Shown here piece by piece: positions 40,678 through 51,612 of a stretch of DNA of 51,869 nucleotides (position 1 is the stretch's first letter; the number at the start of each line of letters is the position of its first letter). A program made the translations under genes and the position numbers. The stretch is from Candidatus Sabulitectum sp. (lineage in GTDB: Bacteria; Fermentibacterota; Fermentibacteria; Fermentibacterales; JCC-6). The notes under the pieces were generated by a model that was given only the letters and a program-made list of their open reading frames with translations, was not told where the DNA came from and did no database searches. The DNA is taken from positions 1 through 51,869 of the forward strand of contig JAGLOJ010000006.1 of assembly GCA_023139045.1 (NCBI GenBank). Direction: 5' to 3'.

Positions 40678-41286
40678 TCACCTGATGCAGTCGAATGTTG
40701 CCTTCAGTGATGCCCAGGTTGTTCTTGAAAACTCCACTGGAGGAACGGGATAGCCGTTGACCCGGATGAGAAAATCATACTGCCAGAAATCAATGACTCC
40801 CGGAGTTGTCACGGTGAAGCTCCTGGGTTTTGCTGCAGGTGAAATATCACTTGCAATTGATGGTGCCCCGATACGACTGAATTGAGGGATTTCAGTGACC
40901 GTAAAATTCATACTGGTTGTGCAGGGAGCTATGGGATAGATGTAGGATGGTGAAAGGTGTGCTGCTGTACCCGTATCGTGCGCGAATATCGTTCCCGTGG
41001 AATACGGAGTTCCATCTGTTATTTCACCAATAAAATCTGAAGTATCCCATTCTTGATTGCTGTTCATAACATGGAAGAACCAGACCTCTGCATAGTTCAA
41101 AACAAATCCTGTGGCGTCCAGGCTGGGATAGAAGTCTTCCAGATTGAACCATGTCCCCCTGTATTCTCCTTCAAATGTGAACCAGTCAGCAATCCCGTCA
41201 TCATACTGCAGAAGATCATCAGTACCTGATGCCCAGGCTGATATGGTCAGCACAAAAATGCAAGCAATGAAACTAAAAGACTTCAT
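40678..41286 (-). CDS. secreted protein of unknown function
   Basis: A 202-residue protein with a clear signal peptide (MKSFSFIACIFVLTISAWASG). The mature chain is rich in aromatic residues and reads as beta-sandwich (LLQYDDGIADWFTFEG, FVLNYAEVWFFHVMN, SFTVTTPGVIDFW). It resembles the small secreted beta domains common in this lineage, without a recognisable sorting tail. GGAGGGCGACGA precedes the ATG. It lies downstream of the Asp-box protein on the same strand, with a hairpin in between, so it is probably transcribed separately. Confidence 0.65.
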   Translation of the reverse strand: MKSFSFIACIFVLTISAWASGTDDLLQYDDGIADWFTFEGEYRGTWFNLEDFYPSLDATGFVLNYAEVWFFHVMNSNQEWDTSDFIGEITDGTPYSTGTIFAHDTGTAAHLSPSYIYPIAPCTTSMNFTVTEIPQFSRIGAPSIASDISPAAKPRSFTVTTPGVIDFWQYDFLIRVNGYPVPPVEFSRTTWASLKATFDCIR

Positions 41287-41443
41287 TCGTCGCCCTCCTT
41301 TAACTCAGCTTCTTTTCTGCACTCTTCTGCAAGGCATCTTGCTATAGGGTGCACACCGTAAGATAAACAACAGTCTGCTTCTTCTGCAATCCAATCATTC
41401 TGTGCTTTATTTGAGGTGTCTGTCATTTTCTGTCTCCCTGTTG

Positions 41444-41483
41444 ATATCCGGAGAGAGCTGCTGCACTCCCCGGATATTTTTTT
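41444..41483. terminator. hairpin terminator after the Asp-box protein gene
   Basis: ATATCCGG and CCGGATAT, extended by GAG/CTC, form a stem about 20 bases beyond the minus-strand stop at 41496. Seven T residues follow on the plus strand, so it also has the form of a terminator in that direction. Confidence 0.65.
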
Positions 41484-41495
41484 CCGTGCTCGCCG

Positions 41496-43214
41496 CTATC
41501 TGATAACTGTAACTGCTTTACTCTGCATTTCCTGTTCATTCCGGAGAACAACTCTATATACACCTTCCGGTAATTTTTCTCCAACAGTCCAGAAGATGCC
41601 AGCGGACCCTGCCGGAACAGCTTCAGTGTGTACTGTTCTTCCACAGATATCAATTATCGAGATGACACCACCTTCGGAACCTGTGCTGATCCATGTGCCG
41701 GAGGATACTGGATTACTCATCAGGTCGAAGGCTGAAGCGGTAATTCCGATATGCTCCTCTTCAACACTCACACTGGAGTTCCACTGAGTATTACCGCTGA
41801 ACCATATCTCATGTGCAGGTGAGAGAGCTGCCGGCTGTCCGTGTCCGGTGGCTGAAAGATCGCTGTCGATCATTGTCCAGACAAAGTCATAACCGGGAGA
41901 ATACATGGCAGTTTTCTTGGTGGCCTCTGAAGGGAAGAGATCATCGTGGTCCAGGTGATAAAAGGTGGTTGCATTGCCCCAGCCTCCCCCGGCGACCATC
42001 CTTTCAGCCTGACGGATGTTGTAGTCAGTGGCTGGATAAGTATTTGCCTGCCAGGCAACATAAAGCATATCTGTGTTGTCAACTGCTATGGAAGGGAACT
42101 CGTTTTCCGCCATTGCTTCATCCACTATTTCAAAGGATCCCCAGTTTCCGGAATTTCTTCCACTGTAGTAGATGTTCTGAAGAATAGTTGAGTACATTCC
42201 CACCTCGGGTCCGGGGAAGCTGTTGGCATTCAGCGGATCAACACCGGGAGTGTAGGGTCCGGGATCAGTGGGATCATGAGGAATAACTCCATGCATCCAG
42301 GCAACATGAGGAATATCTTCTCTGCTTACAGTAAGAGATGGATAACCGTCGCTGTACATACTGCCTGAGGAGTGAGAGACATTCTCGTAGAGATCCCATG
42401 AGTTTCCGGCATCCGGGCTGCTTTTATACATGATGCAGGGACCTGATGTAGGGCCGTCATCACTCCATACAACATGAACCCTTTCAGAGTAGTAGGTGTA
42501 GTTGGATGGTGCTTCCTGGAAATCAATGACTGTAGCGACATCCGGTGTCTGAGAGTTGAATTCAGTCATGCTCAGGTTCTGGAAAGGCGTCCAGTTCATT
42601 CCATGATCAATGCTGTTGGAATAGAGAATATCGGATGTGAGACCCGAATTGAAATTCTCTTCCTGCCAGACTACATGAACAACATTGTTCAGAGAGCAGT
42701 CAACATCAGGAACAAGTGAGTGTTCTGCACTGACATGAACAGTGAACGGTGGTGTCCAGGTTCCCGGTGCGGGCATAGTACTGTTAATATTGGAGGAGTG
42801 CATGATCTGATATACTCCCGACATATCTTCTCTCTGCCATACAACATGCAGCATATCGTTGTCTGTTGGATTCCCGGGTGAGCCGTGCTCAATGGCAATG
42901 GAAGGATACCTGTCATCCAGTGACGTATCGAAGGTAATCTCTGTTGCTGGTGCCCAGTCTGCACTGCTGGTTGGCGGTGCAGGCAGCAGTGTGTGCGAGT
43001 ACATAATGTCACAGTTACCGCCCGGCGTACCGTTCGGGTTCGTCTGGGAGTGATAAACCATGTGGAAGTAACCACGGGAGTCTCTCACCATTCTTCTTCC
43101 GTTATTGAAACCTGTGGCTTCCCATTCACTGGAAAGATCATTGTCTACCTGATGATCGGCCATTGCCGGTGCTACCATCAGGAAAAGAGCTGCGAGAATT
43201 ATCATTGCTTTCAT
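41496..43214 (-). CDS. secreted Asp-box (BNR/sialidase-like) protein with type IX-like C-terminal sorting domain
   Basis: A 572-residue exported protein. A signal peptide (MKAMIILAALFLMVAPAMA) precedes a six-bladed-propeller-like body. Two exact Asp-box motifs S-x-D-x-G-x-x-W (SIDHGMNW, SPDAGNSW) and repeated 'HVVWQ/HVAWMH' strands are visible. The sialidase arginine triad is not evident, so it may bind glycans rather than cut them. The last 75 residues form a FlgD-Ig/Por-type sorting domain (GTWISTGSEGGVISIIDICG, then EGVYRVVLRN and KAVTVIR). The ATG at 43214 has AAAGGA at correct spacing. A sigma54 promoter stands 57-71 bases upstream, and the gene is divergent from the large sigma54 activator. 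Confidence 0.82.
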   Translation of the reverse strand: MKAMIILAALFLMVAPAMADHQVDNDLSSEWEATGFNNGRRMVRDSRGYFHMVYHSQTNPNGTPGGNCDIMYSHTLLPAPPTSSADWAPATEITFDTSLDDRYPSIAIEHGSPGNPTDNDMLHVVWQREDMSGVYQIMHSSNINSTMPAPGTWTPPFTVHVSAEHSLVPDVDCSLNNVVHVVWQEENFNSGLTSDILYSNSIDHGMNWTPFQNLSMTEFNSQTPDVATVIDFQEAPSNYTYYSERVHVVWSDDGPTSGPCIMYKSSPDAGNSWDLYENVSHSSGSMYSDGYPSLTVSREDIPHVAWMHGVIPHDPTDPGPYTPGVDPLNANSFPGPEVGMYSTILQNIYYSGRNSGNWGSFEIVDEAMAENEFPSIAVDNTDMLYVAWQANTYPATDYNIRQAERMVAGGGWGNATTFYHLDHDDLFPSEATKKTAMYSPGYDFVWTMIDSDLSATGHGQPAALSPAHEIWFSGNTQWNSSVSVEEEHIGITASAFDLMSNPVSSGTWISTGSEGGVISIIDICGRTVHTEAVPAGSAGIFWTVGEKLPEGVYRVVLRNEQEMQSKAVTVIR

Positions 43215-43270
43215 TTTCATTTCCTTTCGCTGGTTTTGTTTTTGGGGCTCCCTGCCCGACACTACCTGCA

Positions 43271-43285
43271 GCATGATCAGTGCCA
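43271..43285 (-). promoter_or_regulatory. sigma54 (-24/-12) promoter of the secreted Asp-box protein
   Basis: On the minus strand TGGCAC and TGC place GG (43284-43283) and GC (43272-43271) exactly 10 bases apart, as in the ORP promoter (both read TGGCACT, then ATGC). Transcription would begin near 43260, with a 46-base leader. Confidence 0.7.
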
Positions 43286-43359
43286 GAAGCATAAAATGTT
43301 GTAATGTAATAAAATAGAAGGAATAACCTGAAATTGGATAAGATGTTCGACTGAAAAAA

Positions 43360-43377
43360 CAGGGGAATATTCCCCTG
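43360..43377. promoter_or_regulatory. 18-bp perfect palindrome, candidate enhancer site
   Basis: CAGGGGAAT followed by its exact inverse. The centre is about 85 bp upstream of the -24 element of the divergent sigma54 promoter, a usual enhancer position. It lies about 150 bp before the start of the large activator gene. Confidence 0.6.
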
Positions 43378-43379
43378 GT

Positions 43380-43412
43380 GGGGATAATTTCTTTCATATC
43401 CCCTTGTTTTTT
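43380..43412 (+). promoter_or_regulatory. second dyad (GGGGATA-N10-TATCCCC) with following T run
   Basis: Perfect 7-bp arms at 43380-43386 and 43397-43403, then TTGTTTTTT. It may be another activator site, since GGGGATA recurs at 43494-43500 in the activator's leader, or a terminator-like attenuator read on the plus strand. Confidence 0.5.
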
Positions 43413-43524
43413 CCAGTTCTTGTTTCGTTTTGTAGAAAAAAGTCTGATTTCTGAATGAATCCTACTACTTCGCTATAGACATTGATTAGTTTTGGGGATA
43501 TTTTCCCTACCACAGGAGGTGGCT

Positions 43525-46500
43525 ATGGCTGGAACCAGCAGTATCATTTCAAGAAAGCACATATCCTCGGGGAGAATGGAAATCCTTTTCAAGGATAACA
43601 GCGACAGGCTCAGGCTTGGCAGGATATTCTCCTCCGGTGAGGAAACCGGTGTGGTCAAGAAGATGCTCCGAATGATTTCGGCAATTAAAGTCGATTCCAT
43701 TTTGGTGCCGGACAGGTGTGACACCGACATTGAAGAGGGGAAATTCTGTTTTTCAATGCCCTGGGACCCATTATGGGACTCCTCCGGTATCTGGAAGACT
43801 GAGGAATTGATCGCGCCTTTAAGGGCTCTTCATGAGGAAGGGTGGCTTCATCTTGATATCACTCCTGCTTCATACAGGAATGTCAATGGTAAGCTGAAAC
43901 TTCTCGTCTGGGGTGATGCTCTGATTGCAGGACTTGCCTGCGTTCCCCCCGAGCTGTCTGCGGGAGCGGCACCAACTCCCTTTTCTGATTACTACATGCT
44001 GGGAAGGGCTATGATGGCCAGCAGAGGATACCTCTGGGACGGTTCGAATCCTTCCACAGTGGAAGCCCTTGTGGCAGAGCAGATATCACACAGGGCAAAA
44101 GCTCTCAGGAAAGCGGGCCTGCCTGGTACAACTCTGCAATCCGGAAACTTCAAATGCAACAAGGTCAATATTCTCGCCGGCGGCAAGTGGCAGGAAAGAG
44201 ATCTAATTACCGGAAACTGGGTAACAAAGGCCGGATCAGACGGGTGGCTGGTAAGTGTCGTCAGATGCAACCCCATCGAAACGATGCGACCGCTTCCCGG
44301 CAGGGAAGCTCCCGTCGAGAAAATCAACTCCGGTGCGGCACTGGTAAACAATCTGTTTCCGTCAATGAGCGGTGTTGAAAGACTTCTTGTGATTGATCAG
44401 ATTGAATTTGCCTCCCCTGATCTTTTTGAGATCATCAGGGAATTTACCAATCTTCTGCCTCCTGGCCTGACTGTAATTGTTACCGCTGCGGAACTGCCGG
44501 ATCGACTTAAGGAATGTGATCTGTCAGTTGTTAATCTTGCGGGAGAGGTGTCCGTTGCCTGGGATATTCCATTACCCCTTCTTCCGTCAAAAGCGCTGGG
44601 CTCCGGTTATCCTTCATTCGGATTTCAGGGTGCAATGTACAGGTGCACTGCCGCAGGTGACCCCCCTGAGCCCTCTCAGATAAATCCTGAGACACTTTTC
44701 GCCGAAGGCGGGTATAGAGCTCTGGTTGCGGCAGCGTCAATTGATCAATCGGGGTTAGATACCGGGCTGATAGCCAAAGCCCATTTTGAACTGGGAAATT
44801 TTGATGAGGCTCTCCATTTCACCCCGGACAGCGACATCCTGCTTCGAGCGAGAATACTGCTTGCCATGGGTCGACCCGGGGAAGTTACTGAACTGCTTGC
44901 AGAAAAACAATCGAATGAGGAGAAGGTTCTTAAAGCTTCGGCTCTGATAGATCTGATGGATCTTGAGATGGCAGTTGACCTTCTAAAAGATGTTCCCGGA
45001 GCAGAATCTGCCCTTCTTCTGGCAAAAGCTCTTGACCTGCAGGGCAGAGTTGCCGAGGCTCTTCCTGAAATTGAGAAGGCTCTCGCTTTTGCAGGCGAAC
45101 CCAGCAGGGTAAAGCTTCTCTGCTCAAAAGCTGTCATCTTCATGCGGATCGGAGACTACCGACATGCTCTGGATGCGGCCGAGTGCTCTGTAATTACTGC
45201 CAAGAAACTTGCAGATGCTGCTCTTCTCGGTAAAAGCCTGACAGAGCGTGGTAGAGTGCGGGAGGTTATGGGGAACTGGAGTGGCGCAGTGGATGATTAC
45301 CGTCTTGCACTGCTCTACTATGCTGAAAATCCTGGGAAAACGGATCGTCCACCACTTATTGATCTCTTTGTTCTTGAACTGAGAACAGGAGAGCTTAAAT
45401 CTGCCGTGAGCACTTTCAAATCACTTGGTATTCGTCTTGAACAAAGCGGAAGCGGGATTCCGGCAGATCAGATGACGGAAATGCTCGCTGCCTACAGGGG
45501 TGTTCTTCTGGGTCTGGGTGCTATGCGGATTCCTTCTGCAAGACGCTCTGCTTCAATGGCTGCAGGGAAAAACCTGACTCTCGTCCATGCGCTTAGTCTT
45601 CTGTATCTCGGTCAGCTTCTTTTGCAGGAAGGTAAAAACGAGGAGGGTCTTGAAGCTCTCAAGTATGCCAGGGCGAAGGCGGGTTTCATGGGGGACAGGC
45701 ACCTTGCCCTGCTGGCAGATCTGGCCATGACCCGGGTTGGGGCAGAAATAGACACATCAAGACTGCTCTGGGAAGCGAGGGAACTGGGTTTGAGACCGGA
45801 GGAACTTGAAGCCGAGATCATCTCCTCTGATGACCCTGCTGTAAGAGACAGAGCCTTCCTGGACATCCTGAATATGCCCGCCCCGTTATTAGCCTGTGAA
45901 CTTGCATCCAGTTTCGGCTTGCCTGAAGAACCCGGCATCAGAAGAAGGATACTTGAGTCATTCAAGGACATTTCAGAGCTTCTTAATGATGTGGAGAGAA
46001 AACAGTTTGCCAGACTTAACAGCAGACTGGTCAGAATCCTGGAGAACTTATCAGGCTTTTCTGACATGTCTGTTCTCAGTAATTCGATTAAAAAAATATC
46101 CCAGTGGTATGGAAAAGCCACTGTGGGCCTCAAAGATTTGAATTCACTGGGAGAGGAACTGGGACTGCTTTACCTTGGCCCGGCCCCAAGTGGAAAAAGT
46201 GACGAGTTGCAGATATCAAGTTTGCCCGACCTTTTCGCAATCGGTCCGGATCTTTCCTCGGTGAAATTGCTGGCTCCACTCATTGCTGCTATTTCCGGTG
46301 CAAGTCCCATACTGGCAGTTGACGAACACATTCGAGGTTATAATCTTTTCCCAGAGATAATTGGTCAATCAGACATTGTTATGAAGTTGAAGTCAATCAT
46401 GAAACGGGTTGCACAAATGCCTGTTCCGGTGTTAATAACAGGAGATACAGGTACAGGAAAAGAACTGGTTGCAAGGGGATTGCATGATGAAGGTCCAAGA

Positions 46501-47244
46501 GCAAAGGGTCCCTTCATCGCAGTTGATTGTGGAGCAATTGCCGAGACATTGCTTGAATCAGAATTGTTTGGGGTAACACGGGGAGCTTTTACCGGTGCTT
46601 CGGAGAGCAGAATCGGTCTTATGGAGGCTGCAAATGGCGGTACATTATTTCTTGACGAGATAGGAAATATGTCTGCAGGGCTTCAGGTCAAGCTTCTTAG
46701 AGTCCTTGAAACAGGAAAACTCAGAAGACTTGGTGATACGTCTGAAAGAGAAACATCCTTCCGCTTGATAACTGCAACGAATGCTGATCTGCGCCAGAAC
46801 TCCGCGTCAGGCAAATTCAGGACAGATCTCTACTACAGAATTGCTGTTATAGATATCAAAGTGCCACCTCTTCGGGAAAGAATGGATGACATAGCGCTAC
46901 TGGTTGAGCATTTCACATCGGAGCTTCGCGGTGAGATTCAATTTTCCAGGGATGCCATAAATGCAATGATCAAGTACAACTGGCCCGGTAACATCAGAGA
47001 ACTGCGGAATGTTGTTCAGAGAACAGTCCTGATGTGTCAGGGCAAAATAGTCAGAGCAGATGATGTATCCATAGGAGAAGGGTTTCATAAAGATTCCACA
47101 TTCAGAATGGAGCCCCTTGAAATTGCAATTGTACGACACGTTTCCAGTGTTGTTGACTGTTGTGACGGCAACAGATTGAAAGCCTCAAGAATTCTTCAGT
47201 GCGATCCGAAAACAGTTAGAAAATATCTTGCCCTTAAAAAGTAA
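43525..47244 (+). CDS. giant sigma54 activator: pseudokinase, NTPase-like region, TPRs, AAA+ (GAFTGA), Fis-type HTH
   Basis: A 1239-residue protein. Residues about 10-200 follow a Ser/Thr kinase fold but lack key residues: HLDI stands for HRD, the metal-binding DFG is not evident (VWGDAL), and PPEL stands for APE. Residues about 205-400 resemble a STAND NTPase with a Walker-B-like RLLVIDQIEFASP but no P-loop. TPR-like helices fill about 415-760 and a poorly defined GAF-like part about 800-930. Then comes a complete sigma54 AAA+ domain (GDTGTGKE near 974, ESELFGVTRGAFTGAS, TLFLDEIG, WPGNIRELRN) and a C-terminal HTH. It should activate sigma54 promoters on a signal sensed by the N-terminal modules. 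The ATG at 43525 has AGGAGGTGG. It is divergent from a gene with a sigma54 promoter. Confidence 0.88.
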   Translation: MAGTSSIISRKHISSGRMEILFKDNSDRLRLGRIFSSGEETGVVKKMLRMISAIKVDSILVPDRCDTDIEEGKFCFSMPWDPLWDSSGIWKTEELIAPLRALHEEGWLHLDITPASYRNVNGKLKLLVWGDALIAGLACVPPELSAGAAPTPFSDYYMLGRAMMASRGYLWDGSNPSTVEALVAEQISHRAKALRKAGLPGTTLQSGNFKCNKVNILAGGKWQERDLITGNWVTKAGSDGWLVSVVRCNPIETMRPLPGREAPVEKINSGAALVNNLFPSMSGVERLLVIDQIEFASPDLFEIIREFTNLLPPGLTVIVTAAELPDRLKECDLSVVNLAGEVSVAWDIPLPLLPSKALGSGYPSFGFQGAMYRCTAAGDPPEPSQINPETLFAEGGYRALVAAASIDQSGLDTGLIAKAHFELGNFDEALHFTPDSDILLRARILLAMGRPGEVTELLAEKQSNEEKVLKASALIDLMDLEMAVDLLKDVPGAESALLLAKALDLQGRVAEALPEIEKALAFAGEPSRVKLLCSKAVIFMRIGDYRHALDAAECSVITAKKLADAALLGKSLTERGRVREVMGNWSGAVDDYRLALLYYAENPGKTDRPPLIDLFVLELRTGELKSAVSTFKSLGIRLEQSGSGIPADQMTEMLAAYRGVLLGLGAMRIPSARRSASMAAGKNLTLVHALSLLYLGQLLLQEGKNEEGLEALKYARAKAGFMGDRHLALLADLAMTRVGAEIDTSRLLWEARELGLRPEELEAEIISSDDPAVRDRAFLDILNMPAPLLACELASSFGLPEEPGIRRRILESFKDISELLNDVERKQFARLNSRLVRILENLSGFSDMSVLSNSIKKISQWYGKATVGLKDLNSLGEELGLLYLGPAPSGKSDELQISSLPDLFAIGPDLSSVKLLAPLIAAISGASPILAVDEHIRGYNLFPEIIGQSDIVMKLKSIMKRVAQMPVPVLITGDTGTGKELVARGLHDEGPRAKGPFIAVDCGAIAETLLESELFGVTRGAFTGASESRIGLMEAANGGTLFLDEIGNMSAGLQVKLLRVLETGKLRRLGDTSERETSFRLITATNADLRQNSASGKFRTDLYYRIAVIDIKVPPLRERMDDIALLVEHFTSELRGEIQFSRDAINAMIKYNWPGNIRELRNVVQRTVLMCQGKIVRADDVSIGEGFHKDSTFRMEPLEIAIVRHVSSVVDCCDGNRLKASRILQCDPKTVRKYLALKK

Positions 47245-47580
47245 GACAAGAACTTTGTCAATTGAGGAAGAATGAGATACTTTACTCCATTTCTGATGCT
47301 AACATCAATATCAGAGACTTCCCATGCAGATGCGGGTTATTTTGGCTCAACTATGTCTGAGGGTAGTTTTGCGAAGATATTGCTCGTTCTTGCCACTTCC
47401 TGAAACTGCGGTTGCTCCCGGGTATGTAATTACGGTTATATCTTTTCAACTCAATACCCATTCTGGAACAGGCACTTTGAGCAGACCAGCTACGGAGAAC
47501 AGGATGTATTGTGTATATACCTGGCAGAAGAAGAGAAGTATTATCCTCGTTATATGCAGAGCTTAATGGGAGAGTACTCT
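47245..47580. other. interval upstream of the cyclase, with a short open frame and one in-frame TGA
   Basis: GAGGAAGA followed by ATG (47272) opens 43 codons (begins MRYFTPFLMLTSISETSH) ending in TGA at 47401. After that stop the same frame is open without a break into the cyclase gene, and the last 45 codons read like protein (STQYPFWNRHFEQTSYG, EEEKYYPRYMQSLMGE). It could be an extended N-terminus broken by a stop, or chance. No promoter is clear. Confidence 0.4.
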
Positions 47581-50500
47581 ATGTACCGTTTGATTCCGTC
47601 CTTTATCTGCGAGCAATTCGAAAAGAAGCAATTCAAGGGTGAATTTCCGGCAACCACCATGTTCATCGATATTGCCGGATTTACAGCAATGACACAGACG
47701 TTGATGGATAATGGTAAAGAGGGCGCAGAGGTGCTGGCTGATGTTATCAACGCCGTGTTCAAACCTGCAATCGATGCAATCTTTGAATACAATGGATTTG
47801 TTTCTTCTTTTGCAGGTGATGCTTTTGCAGCAATTTTCCCCTCTGATTCGGTTAGCGTACCTCAAGCTCTTTCAGCAGCTGTTCGCCTTCGGGGGTTGTT
47901 TCTGGAGACGGGAGAACAGCAGACCAAGTTCGGTTTATTTAACTTATCTGTGAGAATCGGACTGTCCAATGGTCTCGTCTCGTGGGGAATCATCTCTCAA
48001 TACTTGCAGAACAGCTACCATTTCGGTGGCGAGGCAATCATGCATTCCGCTGAAAGTGAGCAGAATGCCGCAAGTGGTGAAGTTGTTGTGGATGACAGAA
48101 TATTATCTCAAATACAGGACATGCATGGAGTAATCTGTAAATACAAAAACGACCGCTTCCATACACTGTTGTCTGCTCAGGCAACAGCTGATGCTTCTTC
48201 AAAAACAGGTGTTTCTGAAACATTCTTTTCCTTGCAAAGCATGTTTGTTCCAGAGGATGTTCTTTCTTTGACCGGCAGGGGAGAGTTCCGGGATATTGTT
48301 TCCTGCTTTATATCCTTTGATGTGAAGAGTGATCTTGAAAGGGGAACTGCCAGGGTAATTACACTGGCACACAGCTTCGGAGGATATTTCAACAAGATTG
48401 ACATCAGCGGCAGGAAGGGGGCAATGCTTGTGCTGTTCGGAGCACCAGTCAATCCCGGAAATCTGTACAACCGTGCTCTGAACTTTGCTCTTGCTGTAAG
48501 AGAGATTCCAGAGCTTACGGTACGCATCGGGTTGACCTACGGCACAGCATTCACCGGATTTATCGGCAGTGAGCTTTGCAGTGAATACACAGCGCTTGGA
48601 TCCGTTGTGAATCTGTCGGCACGATTTACTGAGAAGAAAAAGCAAGCTGTTATTTACCTTGACAATGCGATTTACAAACAAACCCATTCTCAGTATGAGA
48701 TTCGTGAGCTGAAACCGGGAAAATTCAAGGGATTCGCCGGGAGGGTCCCCGTTTACCGTTTGATGGGGAAGAAAAAGGTTGTTCAATCTTCATTCTCTGA
48801 AGGAAGTATGGTTGGCCGTGATTCGGAGCTTGACCGGCTGACTGAGTTAATCCGGCCGCTCAACGAAGGTGAATTTGGTGGCATAGTTTATGTGTATGGT
48901 AACCCCGGCATCGGCAAGTCACGGTTGGTTCATGAACTGATTCAGCAGCAGGGGATCAGAACAGTTACTATGCAGACCGACAGCATTCTCAAAAAACCGC
49001 TGAATCCAATTACATATTTCTTTAATAATTACTTTGAGAGTGGCCATGGTTGTTCACTGGATGACAGAAGAGACTTGTTTAAAAAAGCATACCGGAAACT
49101 GATCAGGCGAATTGAGAGAATACCCGGTGAGGATCTCACTTCTGCGGAACGATTAAGAATCTCAATGGATCTGGATCGGGTGGAATCAATCATCGGTGCT
49201 CTTGTCGGACTGTTCTGGAATGGATCGATATATGACGTTATCGATCCTCAGGATCGGGCCATTGTAACAGAGCAGGCAATCAAGGAATTTTTCAAGGCAT
49301 TGAGCCTTGCTGAACCAATCATTCTGCTCATCGAGGATATCCAGTGGCTGGATAGTGCATCCCAGAATGTATTTAAGATACTGACCCGCAGGATTGAGAA
49401 CTATCCTTTGATTATTCTTGCCTGCAGCCGGTTCAATGATGATGGCTCAAGACCGGTGTTAAAGGTGGATGATGATGTGCTGTGTTATTCAATAACTCTG
49501 GAGGAACTGCCCGCCACGATCACAGGAAAATTGATTGAAGAGCGTCTGGGCGAGAAGGTTGATGGTGAACTGGCAGATTACATACAGACCCGTACAGAGG
49601 GCAACCCGTTCTATACCGAACAGTTCTGCCTGTACCTGCAGGAGAATTACATCATCAGGGTTCTTGAAGGACAATACCATCTTGTGAAGGAGCCTGCCGA
49701 AATTCCCACCGACATCAACATGATTCTGATTGCACGAATTGATCGATTGTCAGCAGAGTTGAAGGAGACTGTACAGATCGCATCTGTGCTGGGCCGCGAG
49801 TTTAAGGTTCAGGTACTTACTACGCTGATTGAACTGATGCAGGCTGCTGCTGATAGCGATAACGGAATTTTGCGCGGGTTAATACACACGGATGTTGCCC
49901 CTTTGATTACCGAATTGGAAAACGAGCGGATCTGGTCTGCACTTTCAGAGATCAGATACATTTTCAACCATGCCCTGCTCAGAGATGCGGTTTACGATAT
50001 GCAACTGAGAACTCGGCTCCGGGCTCTTCACAAGCTTGCGGGTGACGCAATTGTTAAGCTCAATCCCGACAGTGAAACGACATTTGCTGATTGTGCTTTT
50101 CATTATGAGCAGGCGGAGAACTGGGAGAGTGCACTGGAGTATTGCACAAGAGCCGGCGAGTATTTTAAGGTATCGGTCAGATACGATGAGGCCCTGATCT
50201 ATTGTCAGAAAGCCCTGTCAATCCGCCTGACCACCCTGGGAGAAAAACACCCGGATACTGCAGCTTCCTATAACAGCATCGGATGGGTTTATCATGAAAA
50301 AGCTGAGTATGACACAGCTCTTTCATATCACGAAAAAGCCCTTGCTATCAGAGAATGTTTACTGGGTAAGAAACATTCTGATACGGCAGAATCATACAAT
50401 CACATCGGAGAGGCTTATCTGAGAAAAGGCGAATACGATACTGCTCTGGCATACCATGTTAAAGCCCTTGATATCCGTAAAGAACTTTTTGGTGAAAAAA

Positions 50501-51612
50501 ATATCTTTACTGCAACTTCATACAGCAACATCGGAGAGGTTCACTGGAAGAAGGGCAACTTTGATAAAGCGTTGAAGTATCACGATATGGCCCTTGCTAT
50601 CAGAGAGGAACTGCTGGGTGAAAGGCATCCTTCCACTGCAACATCATACAACAACATTGGACTGGTTTATTCGGATAAAGGCGATTATGACACGGCTTTG
50701 GTATTCTATGAAAAAGCCCTTGCCATACAGAAAGAGCTGTTGGGAGAAAAACATCCCGATACTGCGGCATCTTACAGCAACATAGGGGTAATTCATTGGA
50801 GGAAGCGTGATTATGACACAGCCCTGTACCTTCTTGAAAGGGCTCTCTGCATACAGAAAGAATTGCTGGGCGAAAAACATTGGTGTACCGCGACTTCATA
50901 CAATAACATCGGATCGGTGCATTATGAAAGAAAAGACTATGACACTGCTCTGGTATTCTATGACAAAGCCCTTGCGATACAAAAAGAACTGCTGGGTGAG
51001 AAGCATTGGTATACCGCCATTTCATACGGCAACATAGGATCAGTTCATTACGGGAAAAGTGATTACAGCACGGCTTTGGCATTCTATGAGAAAGCTCTTG
51101 CGGTACAGAAAGAACAGCTGGGTGAGAAACATCCAGAAACAGCAATCTCATATTATTGTATTGGAATGGTCTATCGGGATAAAGGTGACAATGAGATGGC
51201 TTTGGGATACCTTTTGAAGGCCCTTTCTATTCAGAGAGAATTGCTGGGAGAGAAGCATCCTTATACAACTAACACACTGAATAACATCGGAGTTACCCGT
51301 TTTAACCAGGGAGATTATGGTGGTGCTCTGACAGTATTTGAAGAGGTTCTTGCCATCAGGAAAGGATCCCTGGAAAAAAAAGACCCTTCTACGGCGATGT
51401 CGTTGAGAGACATCTCATCAGTATACGTTGCTCAGGAGAAATACGAAGACGCAAAGCAGCTTCTCAAGCAGGCCTTGTCTATTTTAATAGACTCACTGGG
51501 AGAAGACCATTCACACACAATCAAGTGCCGGAAGAGCCTGGCTGAACTGTATGACAAGACAGGTAATAAGAGTGAAGCAAAGCGAATTCGCGAAGAGATG
51601 AATCAGCTTTAG
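47581..51612 (+). CDS. soluble adenylyl cyclase-like protein: two class III cyclase domains, AAA_16/STAND NTPase, TPR array
   Basis: A 1343-residue cytosolic protein with the order of mammalian soluble adenylyl cyclase. C1 (about 20-200) has the metal aspartates D30 in FIDIAGFT and D80 in FAGDAF. C2 (about 235-395) lacks them but has K279 in GRKGAMLVLFGAP and the transition-state pair N344/R348 in VVNLSAR. Together the halves complete one active site. The C1 residue matching the adenine-selecting lysine of the mammalian enzyme is S76, so the nucleotide used is uncertain. The NTPase has Walker A GNPGIGKS (K446) and Walker B LLIEDIQWLD (about 582-591). About ten 42-residue kinesin-light-chain-type TPRs fill about 880-1343. 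The ATG at 47581 follows GGGAG; the family starts at this MYRLIPSF. Confidence 0.9.
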   Translation: MYRLIPSFICEQFEKKQFKGEFPATTMFIDIAGFTAMTQTLMDNGKEGAEVLADVINAVFKPAIDAIFEYNGFVSSFAGDAFAAIFPSDSVSVPQALSAAVRLRGLFLETGEQQTKFGLFNLSVRIGLSNGLVSWGIISQYLQNSYHFGGEAIMHSAESEQNAASGEVVVDDRILSQIQDMHGVICKYKNDRFHTLLSAQATADASSKTGVSETFFSLQSMFVPEDVLSLTGRGEFRDIVSCFISFDVKSDLERGTARVITLAHSFGGYFNKIDISGRKGAMLVLFGAPVNPGNLYNRALNFALAVREIPELTVRIGLTYGTAFTGFIGSELCSEYTALGSVVNLSARFTEKKKQAVIYLDNAIYKQTHSQYEIRELKPGKFKGFAGRVPVYRLMGKKKVVQSSFSEGSMVGRDSELDRLTELIRPLNEGEFGGIVYVYGNPGIGKSRLVHELIQQQGIRTVTMQTDSILKKPLNPITYFFNNYFESGHGCSLDDRRDLFKKAYRKLIRRIERIPGEDLTSAERLRISMDLDRVESIIGALVGLFWNGSIYDVIDPQDRAIVTEQAIKEFFKALSLAEPIILLIEDIQWLDSASQNVFKILTRRIENYPLIILACSRFNDDGSRPVLKVDDDVLCYSITLEELPATITGKLIEERLGEKVDGELADYIQTRTEGNPFYTEQFCLYLQENYIIRVLEGQYHLVKEPAEIPTDINMILIARIDRLSAELKETVQIASVLGREFKVQVLTTLIELMQAAADSDNGILRGLIHTDVAPLITELENERIWSALSEIRYIFNHALLRDAVYDMQLRTRLRALHKLAGDAIVKLNPDSETTFADCAFHYEQAENWESALEYCTRAGEYFKVSVRYDEALIYCQKALSIRLTTLGEKHPDTAASYNSIGWVYHEKAEYDTALSYHEKALAIRECLLGKKHSDTAESYNHIGEAYLRKGEYDTALAYHVKALDIRKELFGEKNIFTATSYSNIGEVHWKKGNFDKALKYHDMALAIREELLGERHPSTATSYNNIGLVYSDKGDYDTALVFYEKALAIQKELLGEKHPDTAASYSNIGVIHWRKRDYDTALYLLERALCIQKELLGEKHWCTATSYNNIGSVHYERKDYDTALVFYDKALAIQKELLGEKHWYTAISYGNIGSVHYGKSDYSTALAFYEKALAVQKEQLGEKHPETAISYYCIGMVYRDKGDNEMALGYLLKALSIQRELLGEKHPYTTNTLNNIGVTRFNQGDYGGALTVFEEVLAIRKGSLEKKDPSTAMSLRDISSVYVAQEKYEDAKQLLKQALSILIDSLGEDHSHTIKCRKSLAELYDKTGNKSEAKRIREEMNQL
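50176..51540 (+). repeat. 126-bp tandem repeats encoding the TPR array
   Basis: Units of 42 codons recur in phase, each with a GEKHPxTAxSYxNIG segment and an ALAIQKELL segment. I count ten full units and a partial one. Units 4 to 7 are most alike at base level, so expansion or loss by recombination is plausible. Confidence 0.85.

Follow-up and report, generated by a model that had tools for sequence, protein, structure and literature searches.

The window, i.e., the whole stretch of 51,869 nucleotides of Candidatus Sabulitectum sp. that was analyzed, contains a large regulatory gene divergent to a presumed operon encoding secreted proteins. On the forward strand, positions 43525 - 47244 code for a sigma54 activator (bacterial enhancer-binding protein) of 1239 amino acids, as judged from domain search, alignment, and structure model. 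Mechanical ORF calling puts the activator start at a TTG codon (43492) that overlaps the candidate auto-operator described below; the ATG at 43525, preceded by AGGAGG, is the better start. On the reverse strand, the first gene of the presumed operon (41496 - 43214) codes for a secreted protein that resembles Asp-box beta-propellers and has a sorting-tail-like C-terminus, as judged from motifs and model; its start at 43214 was chosen over 43220 because AAGGA occurs 7 nt upstream. This protein possesses two exact SxDxGxxW motifs (SIDHGMNW and SPDAGNSW), and its structure model, which is of modest quality (pLDDT 58), gave a Foldseek match to GH33 sialidase propellers (E about 1e-8). The second gene is a small ORF of 47 amino acids (41283 - 41426, reverse strand), conserved in orthologs, in which substitutions fall mostly in the third codon position (core WIAEEADCCLSYxxHPIARYL); among the loci compared, no relative was found outside the close orthologs (group A, see below). 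Its stop codon overlaps the start codon (ATGA) of the third gene (40678 - 41286, reverse strand), which encodes a secreted YDDG-family protein of 202 amino acids, the commonest partner across other activator loci. In the orthologs, the stop codon of the Asp-box gene is followed by a stem-loop of the type CCGGAGAG...CTCTCCGG without a T-run (41427 - 41495), possibly with a role in processing or stability. At the very beginning of the expected target mRNA, the orthologs carry a short inverted repeat (GGGC...GCCC; 43244 - 43257) with a variable loop, possibly a 5' stabilizing hairpin. The gene behind the activator (47509 - 51612, forward strand) encodes a protein that combines a nucleotide cyclase, an AAA_16 domain whose P-loop looks intact by eye, and numerous TPRs, and that parallels the activator N-terminus in layout; it was not counted in the circuit, as it occurs behind the activator in only two orthologous loci.

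The C-terminal part of the activator comprises an intact sigma54-interaction AAA+ domain (residues 945 - 1111; 46357 - 46857, forward strand), recovered with PF00158 in both the protein-level Pfam search (E = 3e-64) and the genome search (E = 1.2e-65), a lid, and an HTH-like tail (approximately residues 1200 - 1239). The sequence-only reading of this DNA had thus recognized the divergent gene product correctly as a sigma54 AAA+ protein with GAFTGA. In the alignment of homologs, the nearest of which are encoded by Candidatus Fermentibacteria / Sabulitectum genomes, the Walker motifs GxTGTGKE and LFLDEIGN are strongly conserved, and the GAFTGA loop of group A activators reads GAYTG in most other homologs. 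No HTH family scored for the activator C-terminus in the Pfam search; the tail is conserved among homologs (KAS..L.CDPKT.RKYL). The rpoN gene, on which a sigma54 circuit depends, is present as a single copy in the same genome (PF04552; E = 8e-52). The N-terminal part consists of a kinase-like region (approximately residues 1 - 200), an NTPase-like region (approximately 205 - 375), and a TPR superhelix (approximately 388 - 880). Accordingly ordered is the AlphaFold2 model of residues 1 - 902 (pLDDT 86), with an N-lobe-like sheet, a helical lobe, an alpha/beta domain (approximately 205 - 375), and a long TPR superhelix. A Pfam search of the kinase-like N-terminus found nothing, and a profile of residues 1 - 215 searched against the PDB returned kinases for 60 of the 60 best matches, all of them weak (best E = 0.003); in the fold search with the activator model, TPR matches prevailed. 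The catalytic motifs HRD...N and DFG are not intact (group A has HLDITPxSY and WGD, group B HLSIDE), and the NTPase-like part carries LxGGxWQxRD at the place expected for the P-loop, which is not present, together with a Walker B-like LLVIDQIEFAS and a weak AAA_22 match (E = 0.012). Because of these degenerate catalytic motifs and the missing P-loop, the regions are called kinase-like and NTPase-like, both degenerate. Judging from architecture alone, this kinase-NTPase-TPR part would be an input module.

The sigma54 promoter of the target operon, TGGCACTGATCATGCT (43270 - 43285, reverse strand), is conserved in orthologs and displays the exact GG-N10-GC spacing claimed earlier for its -24/-12 element (GG at 43283 - 43284 and GC at 43271 - 43272); transcription is expected to start near 43260. 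The 18-bp perfect palindrome CAGGGGAATATTCCCCTG was likewise found where it had been described (43360 - 43377; center 85 bp from the -24 GG); no other perfect palindrome of the 51.9-kb window reaches this length, the runner-up measuring 14 bp. Its core, conserved in orthologs, is candidate operator 1 (GGGGAATATTCCCC; 43362 - 43375). In tandem at 18 bp lies candidate operator 2 (GGGGATAATTTCTTT; 43380 - 43394), which matches the family consensus at 13 of 15 positions, with a degenerate right half and with a spacing that is kept in orthologs. The second dyad of the sequence-only reading, GGGGATA-N10-TATCCCC, is present as a single occurrence in the window (43380 - 43403), but its closing half-site TATCCCC (43397 - 43403, reverse strand) is absent from relatives and occurs in this genome only, the conserved site being operator 2. 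Similarly, the GGGGATA half-site noted in the activator leader exists (43494 - 43500), but is in truth the left part of a full 15-bp site, GGGGATATTTTCCCT (43494 - 43508). This candidate auto-operator matches the family consensus at 15 of 15 positions and is flanked by a conserved TATAGACAT element on one side and the activator start codon on the other.

Homologs of the N-terminal 900 residues of the activator occur in 21 of the 42 genomes of the set for the phylum Fermentibacterota, spread over three families of the order. Six close orthologs, 74 - 84% identical to the window protein, form group A together with it, and all seven are divergent to the same Asp-box gene. In the aligned intergenic regions of these seven loci, invariance is found mainly in three blocks: the sigma54 element, operator 1, and the auto-operator, the latter with 14 - 15 of 15 positions matched in every one. 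Operator 1 measures 15 bp in all six relatives (e.g., GGGGAATATTTCCCC), as against 14 bp for the window copy, and this one-base shortening makes the affinity of the window site uncertain. Operator 2 of group A is GGGGATA-WTTTC-like and situated 18 bp from operator 1. The same 15-mer is carried by group B activators (33 - 36% identical) and by homologs in two other genera and two other families; outside group A, operators are often tandem at 18 - 20 bp. The consensus, RGGGAWWWWTTCCCY, was matched at 14 or more of 15 positions in 19 of the 23 activator leaders scored (each up to 300 bp) in three families, with 0.05 expected from dinucleotide shuffles; as it was learned from these same loci, the count describes conservation more than it constitutes an independent test, and the shuffle counts are somewhat favorable. 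About 1% of dinucleotide shuffles of the 300-bp leader of the window reach 14/15. The other four leaders fell below this threshold, with a best site of 11/15 for homolog L049. A changed recognition helix was considered as the cause of operator loss in L049 and dropped, as a homolog in genome G010 also differs there yet keeps its operators. In the usual layout, an operator pair is located approximately 65 - 95 bp from the sigma54 promoter of a secreted-protein gene, and close orthologs have one more copy ahead of the activator start codon. Conservation of the operators next to orthologous activators, on which the earlier proposal hinged, hence extends across three families.

Independent tests, unlike the shuffle count of leaders, were provided by whole-genome pattern searches. 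A strict pattern (operator, 58 - 119 bp, and sigma54 promoter) gave nine matches versus none for the control in 36 genomes, and a looser operator-plus-promoter pattern gave 25 versus four in 42 genomes. By reading, approximately 22 of these 25 probably belong to the regulon; two matches in G027 and one in G041 look like chance and were dismissed. In the own genome (3.7 Mb), exact GGGAWWWWTTCCC matches occurred at three places, two of them within this regulon; the third (C186:853) was set aside, being without obvious sigma54 promoter or target. The exact 27-base string of the window had no match in other genomes. With a single mismatch allowed, GGGAWATWTTCCC gave 41 matches versus 11 for the control in the own genome; most of the 30 loci inspected were intragenic, and only the window and contig C2 had an intergenic match beside a sigma54 promoter. 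The strict matches unlinked to an activator, at C2:10144-10267 of the own genome and on contig C47 of G028, both precede a gene for a secreted protein of 215 - 232 amino acids. Orthologs of the C2-type protein in G024 and G031 possess operator-like sites and a -24/-12 element, the latter one base off consensus in G031, so that this unlinked target is shared by four genomes, and the looser search revealed operator and promoter at unlinked YDDG-family genes in G022 and G040. The search of related genomes that had been proposed thus found the operators and the sigma54 promoter upstream of other secreted-protein genes as well.

In group B and in other families, the gene divergent to the activator encodes a YDDG protein, and in the window a YDDG gene belongs to the presumed operon as well, where it comes after the Asp-box gene; YDDG, not Asp-box, is therefore the deepest-shared target. 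A shared sorting tail, as suggested by the sequence-only reading, did not hold as the common feature of the targets. The own genome contains 82 Por_Secre_tail domains (E ≤ 0.01), and the target Asp-box protein falls outside that set, in which its paralog C143 (52% identical) is found; other regulon members show no sorting tail. Judged from these sequences, the tail seems incidental, and small exoproteins appear to be the common theme of the regulon. Independently of the circuit, so many Por_Secre_tail-like C-termini suggest a type IX-like sorting route in the phylum.

The elements, their conservation, and their co-distribution, as read from the sequences, argue for a one-component sigma54 circuit in which the activator has two enhancer sites at the exoprotein operon and an auto-operator apart from them, a reading to which a probability of roughly 0.85 can be given. 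As to binding, activation, autorepression, operon structure, and ligand, we infer the following. The activator would bind the two tandem 15-bp operators (43362 - 43375 and 43380 - 43394) as oligomerizing dimers, after which its GAFTGA AAA+ ring would open the promoter at 43270 - 43285 and thereby drive the presumed operon for the secreted Asp-box propeller protein, the 47-amino-acid protein, and the secreted YDDG protein. On the single operator at 43494 - 43508, it would repress its own gene in the style of PspF. The degenerate kinase-NTPase-TPR module would control the AAA+ ring, and the regulon of the same genome would include the further secreted-protein gene on contig C2. The comparative sequence tests thus favor the original proposal that the activator acts on the palindromes, the exoprotein gene, and itself, with binding and transcription starts deduced.

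Autorepression is proposed from the position of the auto-operator. The TATAGACAT element (43474 - 43482, forward strand), of which GACA is invariant in the seven orthologs, is the probable -10 of the activator's own promoter; the auto-operator sits just downstream of it and shortly before most start codons, a position typical of a steric block, which suggests that the activator limits its own level. The opposite sign, with the activator stimulating its own transcription through this site, is the alternative that survives best, as some activators raise their own synthesis and the site is strongly conserved among close orthologs. It is rather improbable, given that the aligned leaders display no conserved -24/-12 element pointing toward the activator gene.

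The role of the large N-terminal part can be approached through G010, where operator and promoter sites are present without a homolog of the activator N-terminus. Locus L254 of this genome (contig C21; 3109 - 4359 and 4904 - 6860) encodes a short activator of 416 amino acids, 43% identical to residues 835 - 1235, which has kept AAA+ and HTH without the kinase-NTPase-TPR part. Divergent to it are three paralogous genes in tandem for small secreted proteins, and every one has an operator and a sigma54 promoter of its own. The operator therefore goes with the AAA+/HTH part of the protein, and this co-distribution indicates that the 900-residue input module may be dispensable for site recognition. 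The short form is, as a natural homolog without input module, a ready comparison for what the module senses. It also fits a constitutive activator whose kinase-like and NTPase-like parts are relics and that controls by its level alone, as do the degenerate kinase and P-loop motifs. Such a loss of function is quite improbable, since some 900 residues highly conserved across the order are hardly to be expected without one. As an input module acting on the AAA+ ring, the N-terminal part is likely to have a protein partner, given its TPR superhelix. One speculative extension, of low probability, is that the dead kinase-NTPase-TPR scaffold responds to a signal of protein nature, such as how far the exoproteins have been secreted or the co-transcribed 47-amino-acid product, and tunes a dedicated regulon of small YDDG and propeller exoproteins; such activators would then form a class specific to the phylum.

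The operators might also serve another transcription factor, such as a repressor of the exoprotein genes, with the activator using other sites or none. The palindromes do resemble ordinary dyad operators, and homolog L049 lacks a good site. Nevertheless, all strict matches were confined to activator-bearing genomes, the apparent exception among the looser matches, G010, has its truncated AAA+/HTH homolog beside the sites, and paralogous targets away from the activator are devoid of sites: seven Asp-box paralogs (52 - 59% identical) not beside an activator, C143 of the same genome included, had neither an operator of at least 13/15 nor a TGG.A..TGC promoter. This explanation is thus very improbable. 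That the palindromes are structural, as terminators or hairpins, can be practically dismissed: the 18-bp element is perfectly palindromic and lies in a short intergenic region, but it has neither loop nor T-tract, the relatives show a 15-bp spacing with an odd center, and the motif recurs in tandem at 18 - 20 bp, distant from gene ends.

Among known systems, PspF/pspA and NorR/norVW are divergent one-component sigma54 activators with autorepression. Enhancer-binding proteins of Desulfovibrio are similarly divergent to their targets, and divergent one-component activators are common (PMC4641369). The window circuit resembles these types in the back-to-back arrangement of activator and sigma54 target, the dyads upstream of the promoter, and a site that overlaps the region from which the activator itself is transcribed; it differs by the very large N-terminal module and by an auto-operator that is apart from the enhancer pair. 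Exported PEP-CTERM proteins are likewise regulated through sigma54 with an enhancer-binding protein and a box upstream, which is located 32 - 92 bp from the -24/-12 promoter of targets that are mostly single-gene operons with long leaders (PMC1569441). The PEP-CTERM regulator PrsR (TIGR02915) shares with the window system the NtrC-like activator, the upstream box, the -24/-12 promoter, and the exported targets. However, PrsR belongs to a two-component system, as a response regulator with PrsK as its kinase, and acts on PEP-CTERM proteins, whereas the window activator works as a single component to which a kinase-like/NTPase-like/TPR module is fused, and its targets are not defined by a sorting tail. 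The window activator also scored below the TIGR02915 cut-off (270 versus 502.6 bits), matching over residues 942 - 1228 only, from AAA+ to HTH. The order of kinase-like, NTPase-like, and TPR parts recurs in a kinase-STAND-TPR signaling protein of M. tuberculosis, a kinase with a MalT-like part (PMC1262709), and the STAND-TPR structure 6mfv; in the window activator, by contrast, both enzymatic parts appear degenerate, and a sigma54 AAA+ ring with HTH forms the output.

In a literature search that covered few subscription journals, no such activator was found described in this phylum, nor any sigma54 activator with a kinase-like/NTPase-like/TPR input. The sequence-only reading had regarded control of a sorting-tail exoprotein by a pseudokinase-TPR activator as not known to be described; sigma54/box control of exported proteins is known (PMC1569441), and the input module remains the unusual part. 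The circuit type being already known, novelty hence appears to lie in the degenerate kinase-NTPase-TPR input and in a regulon that extends through the phylum. A phylum known almost solely from metagenomes gains a testable regulon with one operator and one activator family, listing a few secreted target genes of unassigned function that are very probably co-regulated. In addition, the circuit adds a case to sigma54 control of the cell exterior, an established theme (PMC3162934).

Outside the phylum, locus L143 (530 - 8156) contains two tandem TPR-sigma54 activators (ORFs of 948 and 835 amino acids) followed by secreted kelch-like repeat proteins. These activators resemble the window protein in the succession, by eye, of TPR, sigma54 AAA+, and Fis-like HTH, and in adjoining secreted propeller-like genes; no kinase-like/NTPase-like part was seen in them, and the likeness is one of domain layout. 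This locus hints at a wider association of TPR activators with exoproteins.
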